A stretch of DNA of 64,000 nucleotides from Alphaproteobacteria bacterium (GTDB lineage Bacteria > Pseudomonadota > Alphaproteobacteria > Rs-D84 > CACZYB01), in the NCBI GenBank assembly GCA_017938435.1, contig JAGBBO010000047.1, positions 1-64,000 on the forward strand, in the 5' to 3' direction. This document shows positions 41,165 to 57,741 of the stretch, one piece after another (the stretch's first letter is position 1; each line of letters begins with the position of its first letter). The position numbers and the translations under genes are program-made. The notes under the pieces are model-generated. The model worked only from the letters and a program-made list of their open reading frames with translations, was not told the DNA's origin and did not search any database.

Positions 41165-41199
41165 AGGTTTGTTTTAAATACGATAAAAAAGGAGAAAAT

Positions 41200-42527
41200 A
41201 TGATTAGACAAAATAGACGAATGGGGGGGGTAAATCCCTTGTAAACCTAGGTAAAGCCTTGCTTTCAGCGATAGTTGTATCTGCTGTTATTTTAAATGAA
41301 AATGCTATTGCAGCAAGAAGAAAATCTTCAAAAACCACTTCTAAAAAAGGTTTGCGTTCTGCAAGTTCAAAAAAATCTAATTCCGCTAAATCAACATCAA
41401 AAAAGGGCCTTCGCTCGGCTAGTTCAAGGTCTAATTCTGGAACTGGTTCAACATCAAAAAAGGGCCTTCGCTCGGCTAGTTCAAGGTCTAATTCTGGGAC
41501 TGGTTCAACATCAGGCAGAAGTTCAAGGTCATCAAAGCGTGCGGCAACTGCTTCGGCCAAAGTAAGCAATATTAGGGGGTTGAATTCTTATTCAAATTCG
41601 ACCTATGGAAATACGACAAATTATTCTTATGCAGATGTTAGCGATGTAACAAGTTTAATCTCTGGTTTGACATCGAAAATGAAAACATTGTCCGAAACGA
41701 TGAATGAATATGCGAACAAAATTTCAAATTTAGAAAAACAGAATTCTGAATATGCAAATAAGATGTCTGACTTTGAAACTCGTCTTGCAAAATTGGAGGC
41801 AGGAAGTGTCGTAACAACACAAAATGTTCCCCTTTCTACAAGTTCAACAACGACTTCGGATGGAAAACTTGGGTATATAAAGGGTAGTGCAGATTTGTGT
41901 AAACCAGACTCTTCAGGCCATAAATATTGTTCTGTTGCTATAAATGTTGATAAAAAATATCCTGGAAGTTCTTTTTGCATATCTTATCTATATGATAAAT
42001 CAGTAAATTCTTGGACAGCTCGAAGTAAGATTTTTGATATGCAGACAATAACTGGTCAAATAAATAGTATAAAAGATTTTACAAAAAATAAACCTACTTT
42101 ATTTGTAATGGATGATTTTTCTTATTATCTTGGTGATGAGTATTCTAGAATGATTTTAGAAAAAAAAGACGATAGAAAATATATTTTATTATGCGGTACT
42201 GGATTAGGGCATAACCATACAGATACTGTATATCCTACATTTGATATCTTAGATAAACAAGTTAAATTATATGGTTATCCTGGTGCATACAAAGTGTTTA
42301 ATGATGCAAAAGGCTCAATAAGACATCCTTTTACTTCACCTTCCGGAGATTTAGTTTTATTTGATGTAAATGGAAGTCCATTAATAAAGTGGACAGGTAA
42401 TAGTTTAGAATATTCACCAAATCTTTCAGAAAGTTATATAAAAGAGTTAAAATCTTTTGTCCGTGATGGAAGTAATGAAGAATATTTTGATGTAAGAGGA
42501 AACAAGTATTCAAAATTAGATTGGTAA
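41200..42527 (+). CDS. Exported Ser/Lys-rich repeat protein, out of frame at a G8 tract
   Basis: An ATG at 41200 with a strong AAGGAG site opens MIRQNRRMGG and then hits eight G's (41223-41230), after which the frame stops at TAA. Adding one G gives an uninterrupted protein of about 442 residues: MGGGKSLVNLGKALLSAI and a hydrophobic stretch ending NENAIAA form a signal peptide. Next come Ser/Lys/Arg-rich repeats (KKGLRSASSRSNSGTGST), a coiled coil (about 150-190), and a ~220-residue C-terminal domain with CKPDSSGHKYCSVAIN. As sequenced the gene is off, unless translation starts at TTG 41259, which lacks a ribosome site. Function unknown; probably a surface protein. Confidence 0.65.
41223..41230 (+). 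repeat. G8 homopolymer in the signal-peptide region
   Basis: The only run of eight G's seen in a ~30% GC window. It sits 20 nt after the start codon and sets the frame of the exported protein: 6 or 9 G's would be in frame, 8 is out of frame. Confidence 0.85.
41391..41504 (+). repeat. 57-bp in-frame tandem repeats
   Basis: Units start at 41391 and 41448, with the next unit beginning at 41505 but only partly matching; the two full copies differ at one or two bases. A diverged copy lies just upstream (about 41336-41390). They encode 19-residue Ser/Arg/Gly units. Confidence 0.88.
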
Positions 42528-42532
42528 AAAAA

Positions 42533-42564
42533 ATCCCCTCTAATTCGAGGGGATGATTTTTTTT
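42533..42564 (+). terminator. Terminator of the repeat-protein gene
   Basis: Stem ATCCCCTC/GAGGGGAT (42533-42540 with 42547-42554), loop TAATTC, then eight T's. Same CCCCTC/GAGGGG core as those at 656 and 8653. Confidence 0.88.
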
Positions 42565-55047: not shown

Positions 55048-57741
55048 ATGATGAGTAGTTTAGAAAAAGTTACGCCTATGATGCAACAATATTTATCTGT
55101 GAAATCACAGCATAAAGATTGTCTTCTTATGTATCGTATGGGTGATTTTTATGAACTATTTTTTGATGATGCAGTAATTGCGTCAAAGGCATTAGATATT
55201 GCACTTACACATCGTGGAACCTATATGGGAAAGCAAGTTCCAATGTGTGGTGTTCCATACCATGCTTTTTCATCATATATGCCAAAACTTGTTCGACAGG
55301 GGTTTAAGGTCGCAATTTGTGATCAAATGGAAAGTCCAGAAGAAGCAAAAAAACGCGGTTATAAGGCTGTTGTAAAAAGAGAAGTTTCTCGTATTATTAC
55401 TGCTGGAACATTAACAGAAGATAATTTATTAAACGGTTCGTTTAACAATTATTTAATGTCGCTTGTTTTTGTTGATGGTTTAGAAATGAAAATTTCTGTT
55501 GCTTTAACAGATATTTCTACTGGTGAATTTACTATTTATTCATTCGAAGAAAATTCAATATCTGAATTACTTTCATTAACTGTTGTTAAAAATCCTGCTG
55601 AAATAATTATGTCACAGGATGATATTGATAATCCTAAACTTGAAAGTTTTATTTCTCAATTCAAGGCAAAAATTGTTATTAAACCTTATACATTTTTTGA
55701 TTCTCTTAATGCGAAAATTAACCTTTGCAAAGTTTTTAAAGTTGCAGAAGTTTCTGTTCTTGGTGATTTTTCTGATCCAGAGATTCGTGCCCAAGGTGCT
55801 ATTTTAAATTATATTAACCTTACACAAATTGGGCAAATTCCAAATATTTCTAAACCACATAAAAAATCTAATTCTGATATTCTTCAAATTGATGCCTTTT
55901 CAGTTAAGAATTTGGAAATATTTGAAAATATAAATGATGATACAACAAAATCATCCAATCTTTTTGCTGTAATGGATAAGACAAAAACACCTATGGGAAA
56001 GCGAGAGCTTAAAAATGCGTTAAGTTCACCTCTTGCAAATGTTACGGAAATAAATAAAAGGTTAAATATTGTTGATTTCTTTTTTAATAAATCTGATTTA
56101 ATCGAAAATATTCGTGATATTTTATCCCAAGTTTTTGATATTCAACGAATTGTTTCAAGAATAAGTTGCAACCGTGCTGGTCCAAGGGATTTGCTTAATA
56201 TTGGCGAAACATTATCAATCATTCCAACCCTTAAAAATTTATTATTACAATCTGTTGAAAACAGTATTGATAACCCAATACAATCTATTATTGATGAATT
56301 AAAAGATTTTTCATCTCTTGCACATAATATTCAAAGTGCAATAATTGATGAACCGCCACTAATTACTCGTGATGGTGGATTTATCAGGGAGGGGTATCAT
56401 CCGGCACTTGATGAATATAAATTGCTTTCTAAAAATACAAAACAGGTTATTTTAGATTTACAGGCAAAATATTCTCTTGATGCCAAGGTTTTAAATTTAA
56501 AAATAAAATATAATAATCTTGCTGGGTATTTTATTGAAGTTCCAACCAAACAGGCAACATCACTTCTTGAACCAAATAGTGGGTTTATTCATAAACAAAC
56601 TCTTGTAAATTGTGTCCGTTTTACAACTCCGGAATTATCAGAGATAGAGCAAAAAATATTGGTTGCACAGGATAAATCTCTTTCTTTGGAATTAAGTTTG
56701 TTTGATGAACTTTGCAAAACAATTCTTGATAGGGTTGATGATATAAACACATTATCAGATGCTATTGCCAAATTGGATTTTTATTCTTCTCTTGCATTGC
56801 TTGCTCAAACAAACGATTATGTAAAACCAGTTATAGATGATTCGTTTGCTTTTGAAATAATTGATGGTCGTCATCCTGTGGTAGAAACTAATTTAAAGCA
56901 ACAAAATATTACATTCATTCCAAACGATTGTTCGTTGGAAAACAAAGGGGAAAATAGTAAACTTTGGATTTTAACAGGGCCAAATATGGCTGGTAAATCT
57001 ACATTTTTAAGACAAAATGCAATTATTACAATTATGGCTCAGATTGGTTCATTTGTTCCTGCAACCTCAGCTCATATTGGTGTAGTTAATAAATTGTTCA
57101 GTCGTGTTGGTGCTTCTGATAATTTGGCAAGAGGTCAATCAACATTTATGGTAGAAATGAGTGAAACTGCGACTATTCTTAATCAAGCAGATGAACATTC
57201 ATTTGTCATCCTTGATGAAATAGGAAGGGGAACCGCAACATTTGATGGTCTTTCTATTGCATGGGCAGTGCTTGAATACCTTAACAATATAAATCGTTGT
57301 CGTGGTATTTTTGCAACACATTATCATGAACTTACTGGTGCTATTGAAAAAATGAAAAATGTTTCTGCTCATACTATGGAGATAAAAGAATATAAGGGTG
57401 ATGTAATTTTCATTCACAAAGTAGGTATTGGCGTTGCCGATAAATCATACGGAATACATGTCGCAAAAATTGCTGGTATTCCAGAGGAAGTTATTTCAAG
57501 GGCATCCCAAATTTTGGAAACATTTGAATCTAATGAAGATAATTTATCTAATAAAAAATTAGTTAAAAAGATTGATGAAATGGATTTATTTTCATTTAAA
57601 CCTCAAACTGAAATAAATAAAAAATCCGAAGAAGATGAAAAACTTCGCCGTCTTCGTGACAAATTAAAGGAGATAAATCCTGATGACCTATCTCCGAAAT
57701 CTGCATTATCAATTATGTATGAAATAAAAGATATGTTTTAA
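55048..57741 (+). CDS. mutS: DNA mismatch repair ATPase MutS
   Basis: 897 residues. The mismatch-binding Phe-x-Glu is in MGDFYELFFDDA; the ATPase has Walker A TGPNMAGKSTFLRQNA, LDEIGRGTATFDGLSIAWA (Walker B) and FATHYHELT. A helical C-terminal dimerisation tail ends the protein. SD AAGGATG overlaps the preceding lipoprotein stop. mutL is not in the window. If functional, mismatch repair would dampen homopolymer slippage, relevant to the A9, G8 and A10 tracts. Confidence 0.97.
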   Translation: MMSSLEKVTPMMQQYLSVKSQHKDCLLMYRMGDFYELFFDDAVIASKALDIALTHRGTYMGKQVPMCGVPYHAFSSYMPKLVRQGFKVAICDQMESPEEAKKRGYKAVVKREVSRIITAGTLTEDNLLNGSFNNYLMSLVFVDGLEMKISVALTDISTGEFTIYSFEENSISELLSLTVVKNPAEIIMSQDDIDNPKLESFISQFKAKIVIKPYTFFDSLNAKINLCKVFKVAEVSVLGDFSDPEIRAQGAILNYINLTQIGQIPNISKPHKKSNSDILQIDAFSVKNLEIFENINDDTTKSSNLFAVMDKTKTPMGKRELKNALSSPLANVTEINKRLNIVDFFFNKSDLIENIRDILSQVFDIQRIVSRISCNRAGPRDLLNIGETLSIIPTLKNLLLQSVENSIDNPIQSIIDELKDFSSLAHNIQSAIIDEPPLITRDGGFIREGYHPALDEYKLLSKNTKQVILDLQAKYSLDAKVLNLKIKYNNLAGYFIEVPTKQATSLLEPNSGFIHKQTLVNCVRFTTPELSEIEQKILVAQDKSLSLELSLFDELCKTILDRVDDINTLSDAIAKLDFYSSLALLAQTNDYVKPVIDDSFAFEIIDGRHPVVETNLKQQNITFIPNDCSLENKGENSKLWILTGPNMAGKSTFLRQNAIITIMAQIGSFVPATSAHIGVVNKLFSRVGASDNLARGQSTFMVEMSETATILNQADEHSFVILDEIGRGTATFDGLSIAWAVLEYLNNINRCRGIFATHYHELTGAIEKMKNVSAHTMEIKEYKGDVIFIHKVGIGVADKSYGIHVAKIAGIPEEVISRASQILETFESNEDNLSNKKLVKKIDEMDLFSFKPQTEINKKSEEDEKLRRLRDKLKEINPDDLSPKSALSIMYEIKDMF

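Follow-up and report, generated by a model that had tools for sequence, protein, structure and literature searches.

A candidate poly-G on/off switch at the start of an exported-protein gene in a gut-type alphaproteobacterium

The gene and its G8 tract

The window analysed here is a stretch of 64,000 nucleotides at the start of contig JAGBBO010000047.1 of the Alphaproteobacteria bacterium assembly GCA_017938435.1 (genome G000 below). A gene lying between lpxK and a convergent ybaB has a start codon that is out of frame with the long reading frame behind it. Its features are as follows.

41189-41194 (+), Shine-Dalgarno (SD) sequence AAGGAG
41200-41244 (+), start codon ATG and short open frame as sequenced, MIRQNRRMGGVNPL followed by TAA at 41242-41244 (OFF state)
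41217-42527 (+), open frame of 436 codons not reached from ATG 41200, with signal peptide (KSLVNLGKALLSAIVVSAVILNENAIA), Ser/Lys/Arg-rich repeats, coiled coil and beta-rich C-terminal part
41223-41230 (+), G8 homopolymer tract, the candidate switch; its first G belongs to the second ATG codon
41231-41245 (+), post-tract box TAAATCCCTTGTAAA
41259-41261 (+), TTG, the only standard start codon in the long frame before the hydrophobic core
41391-41513 (+), 57-bp tandem repeat, 2.2 copies, 98% match (STSKKGLRSASSRSNSGTG)
41637-41804 (+), predicted long helix/coiled coil (residues 126-181 of the 421-residue query)
42533-42554 (+), intrinsic-terminator-like hairpin between this gene and ybaB

Translation from ATG 41200 gives MIRQNRRM, enters the G8 run 20 nt after the start codon and stops at codon 15. 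A sequence-only reading had described this layout, with an exported repeat protein placed out of frame by the G8 tract, and had proposed slipped-strand phase variation while allowing for a sequencing error. The description was confirmed, including the presence of tandem repeats in the protein.

No convincing domain was found in Pfam, NCBIfam or PDB. A single-sequence AlphaFold2 model had a mean pLDDT of 41.6 and only the coiled coil was predicted with confidence. No orthologue of the gene was found by peptide patterns in 84,980 species genomes, in 58 relatives outside G000, or at the lpxK-ybaB locus of five genomes of the same genus. No Rfam match was obtained at the tract.

The length of the tract alone proves nothing. 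It is the only G-run of 7 or more in the window, where a G8 is expected about 0.1 times, and the 1.107-Mb draft genome contains three tracts of G8 or more, roughly the number given by chance. GGG makes up only 9% of glycine codons in neighbouring genes. Two other tracts in this genome are worth noting. On contig C5 (locus L001, 1485-1520; L numbers denote extracted loci) a G9 lies between TTGAAA (spacer 19) and TATAAT upstream of a lipoprotein gene, although the neighbouring genes on this contig look unlike the rest of the genome and may be foreign. On contig C16 (L003, 1501-1508) an in-frame G8 lies near the 3' end of a glycosyltransferase gene directly upstream of a gene that by eye is sulfatase/EptA-like, and this is a second candidate contingency tract.

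The leader ATGRTTAGAYAAAA was found without mismatch in exactly three genes of this genome. Promoter, leader and signal peptide share 82% DNA identity with a paralogue on contig C29 (L006, 820-1833, minus strand), whose C-terminal part differs; a third gene on contig C28 (L060, 3423-5661, minus strand), encoding a Ser/Lys/Arg-repeat and TolA-like/cysteine-rich protein, shares the leader ATGGTTAGACAAAA and the KKGLRSASS repeats. In all three genes the leader is cut off from the long frame, but each time differently: by the G8 tract in the window gene, by a TAA at codon 4 in C29, where the tract is eroded to AGGGGGG, and by a perfect 13-bp tandem duplication in the hydrophobic part of the signal peptide in C28. 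The downstream frames of the three genes have no stops over 318-719 codons (318 in C29, 719 in C28), so the coding capacity is recent or still used. Other Ser/Lys/Arg-repeat genes in this genome and in the related genome G004 have intact ATG, GTG or TTG starts.

Poly-G tracts in related genomes

Inspection of gene starts across the family showed that an SKR-family gene in the congener G003 has the same layout, with G9 in codons 14-16 and also out of frame, and that G9/G10 tracts lie upstream of related genes in G005 and G007. Twenty-one genomes were then scanned for G8 runs. G003 contained 45 tracts of G8 or more in about 1.1 Mb (41 of G9 or more, where about 1 is expected) and G005 also contained many, against 3 in G000 and 1 in G004. 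Two genomes of the same family, G008 and G009, gave 341 and 247 G8 matches; at about 50% GC some of this is chance, but at one locus in G009 the tract is followed by GTAAATTCAATGATTTACA.

Sixty loci holding 65 tracts were extracted. The tract lengths were 8 (4 tracts), 9 (48), 10 (12) and 11 (1), and G7 runs were absent from these loci. For G003 alone the run lengths were bimodal: 6 (2), 7 (0), 8 (4), 9 (30), 10 (9) and 11 (1).

Twenty-six tracts in G003 and G005 lie 18-42 nt after an SD-preceded ATG of a long frame, the same position class as the window tract. Four are in frame, 18 are one base too long and 4 are two bases too long, although one of the last has an alternative GTG start that would be in frame. 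Sixteen of 21 OFF genes checked have no start codon in the 25 codons after the tract and so cannot bypass it. The products are mostly exported proteins, many with the Ser/Lys/Arg repeats of the window gene and some cysteine-rich, together with a PAP2 phosphatase, a GT92 glycosyltransferase and an EptA-like transferase. The 15 bases after the window tract, TAAATCCCTTGTAAA, are identical to those after the G10 tract of an exported-protein gene in G003 (L131) and occur nowhere else in the roughly 0.7 Mb of sequence compared.

Four further tracts, two of them at one locus, lie in promoter spacers with the arrangement TTGACA-N9/10-G9-TAAAAT. Others lie 75-160 nt upstream of the starts of exported-protein genes. 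Fourteen, in G003 and G005, are G8-G10 runs in the loop of hairpins with differing but complementary stems (e.g. CCATCCCCCTA-G9-TAAGGGGGATGG), some 75-90 nt upstream of exported-protein genes and several at contig ends; the G9 hairpins gave no Rfam match. Ten orthologous pairs between G003 and G005 keep the tract over flanks of 72-90% identity, and in four of these the lengths differ (8/9, 8/10, 11/9 and 10/9).

Unexpectedly, GTAAAATCAATAAGTTATA or a variant stands next to many tracts. It is an exact match to the IHF consensus WATCAANNNNTTR in 19 of 65 tracts, against 1.5% of background positions. Its distance is fixed: 13-15 nt after the G-run, 14-16 nt before it on the other strand, or directly adjacent and inverted. 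The last arrangement, G9-TAAATCATTGATTATA, was seen at six loci, upstream of an outer-membrane-type protein gene and ABC-transporter-like genes. In tracts just after a start codon the same box encodes a V-[KN]-S-x-x-Y motif of the signal peptide, with GTA and TCA codons nearly invariant although these make up only 24% of Val and 32% of Ser codons in the window genes, so DNA-level constraint or common descent is likely. Each congener has three HU/IHF-family genes, but IHF binding, and a role of the box in switching, are inferences. The window tract lacks the box, having TAAATCCCTTGTAAACCTAGG instead.

Interpretation

The combination of enrichment, retention, length change and position is what is expected of SSR contingency loci, and it supports slipped-strand phase variation as the lineage-wide function of such tracts. 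In the absence of read data or conspecific genomes, the window gene is probably a phase-variable locus for an exported, probably surface-exposed, Ser/Lys/Arg-repeat protein, and one member of a poly-G phasome spread through this genus and family of small-genome Alphaproteobacteria. The G-tract lies in the n-region of the signal peptide. Replication slippage would change its length, so that in one of three length classes translation runs from ATG 41200 through the signal peptide and the 436-codon frame, and otherwise ends within a few codons. The consensus in this draft is OFF. If the equilibrium length is near 9, as in the congeners, a single step would separate the two states. G8 is, however, at the short end for efficient switching. 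MutS is present (PF00488 at 56965-57525 of the window, in an 899-codon frame), so mutability should be lower than in Campylobacter; as MutS is also present in G003 and G005, loss of mismatch repair was rejected as the cause of tract abundance.

The main rival, less likely but not excluded, is that the phasome is eroding in this species and that this copy is a fresh pseudogene, locked off with no meaningful switching. Few tracts remain in G000 and G004 compared with G003 and G005, and the two closest family members in G000 are off through lesions that are not G-tracts. On the other hand, the open downstream frames mean that inactivation would have to be very recent in all three genes, and the tract itself is still 8 long.

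Initiation at TTG 41259, making the gene always on with a non-coding or regulatory leader, seems unlikely. TTG starts occur in this genus (a dacC-like gene), and the C29 paralogue has the same first standard start at the aligned place, so both genes would be intact. However, the resulting signal peptide would have no positively charged n-region, related genes start at ATG with NLGK-type n-regions, a strong SD-ATG precedes the tract, and most OFF genes checked in relatives offer no such start.

Programmed slippage of RNA polymerase or ribosome, giving a fixed fraction of full-length product without any change in the DNA, is similarly improbable. Of the 26 tracts in relatives 18 are off in the same direction (chi-square p = 5e-4 against equal thirds), as if one shift were built in. 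The window copy, however, is off in the other direction, ON states and two-base-off states occur, orthologous tracts differ in length, and a tract in a promoter spacer cannot act by slippage; the skew also follows if length 9 is the mutational equilibrium and most of these cassettes are in frame at 8. A sequencing or assembly error hiding a constant in-frame tract is likewise unlikely, for although homopolymers are error-prone and this is a single MAG-like draft in 55 contigs, the congeners independently show long tracts with a sharp 9-10 peak and mostly off frames, and the other lesions in the paralogues are not homopolymer indels.

A more speculative and rather doubtful possibility is that G9/G10 plus the IHF-type box at fixed spacing is one DNA element, placed by this lineage both inside signal-peptide coding sequence and upstream of promoters: a portable phase-variation cassette whose nucleoprotein geometry sets promoter output or even controls tract length. 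The sharp length peak without any G7 would then reflect active maintenance. The fixed spacing is a new lead on how such tracts are kept or read.

Comparison with known systems

Poly-G phase variation is well known, but mainly from mucosal pathogens such as Campylobacter, Helicobacter and Neisseria, and has not previously been described for this group. The probable home of this genome, by inference, is the order Rs-D84 of reduced-genome gut Alphaproteobacteria (about 0.7-1.1 Mb, gut-associated, with many hypothetical membrane-bound proteins), the account of which does not mention phase variation or homopolymers (PMC12306168). A phasome in such an uncultured lineage with MutS present would mean that dozens of surface proteins can be switched combinatorially in a bacterium thought to live on other cells, and would explain why many of its exported proteins look like pseudogenes in assemblies.

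The poly-G contingency genes of Campylobacter likewise have G-tracts near the 5' end of surface genes in low-GC genomes, frameshift on/off switching (here inferred) and envelope functions, with lengths peaking at 9 and 10 (53% and 26%, PMC6321876; here 74% and 18%). The present lineage is unrelated, MutS is present, many tracts lie outside ORFs, exported repeat proteins predominate and an IHF-type box accompanies many tracts. The G9 tracts between -35 TTGACA and -10 TAAAAT resemble the promoter-spacer poly-G/C switches of porA, opc and fetA in Neisseria, in different genes and a different lineage. Where tracts lie upstream of starts, the order is often box, tract, core promoter, as in nadA of Neisseria meningitidis, in which IHF binds at a TAAA repeat tract upstream of a core promoter and tract length alters spacing (PMC2791445); here the tract is mononucleotide, many loci are involved and the box also occurs inside coding regions.
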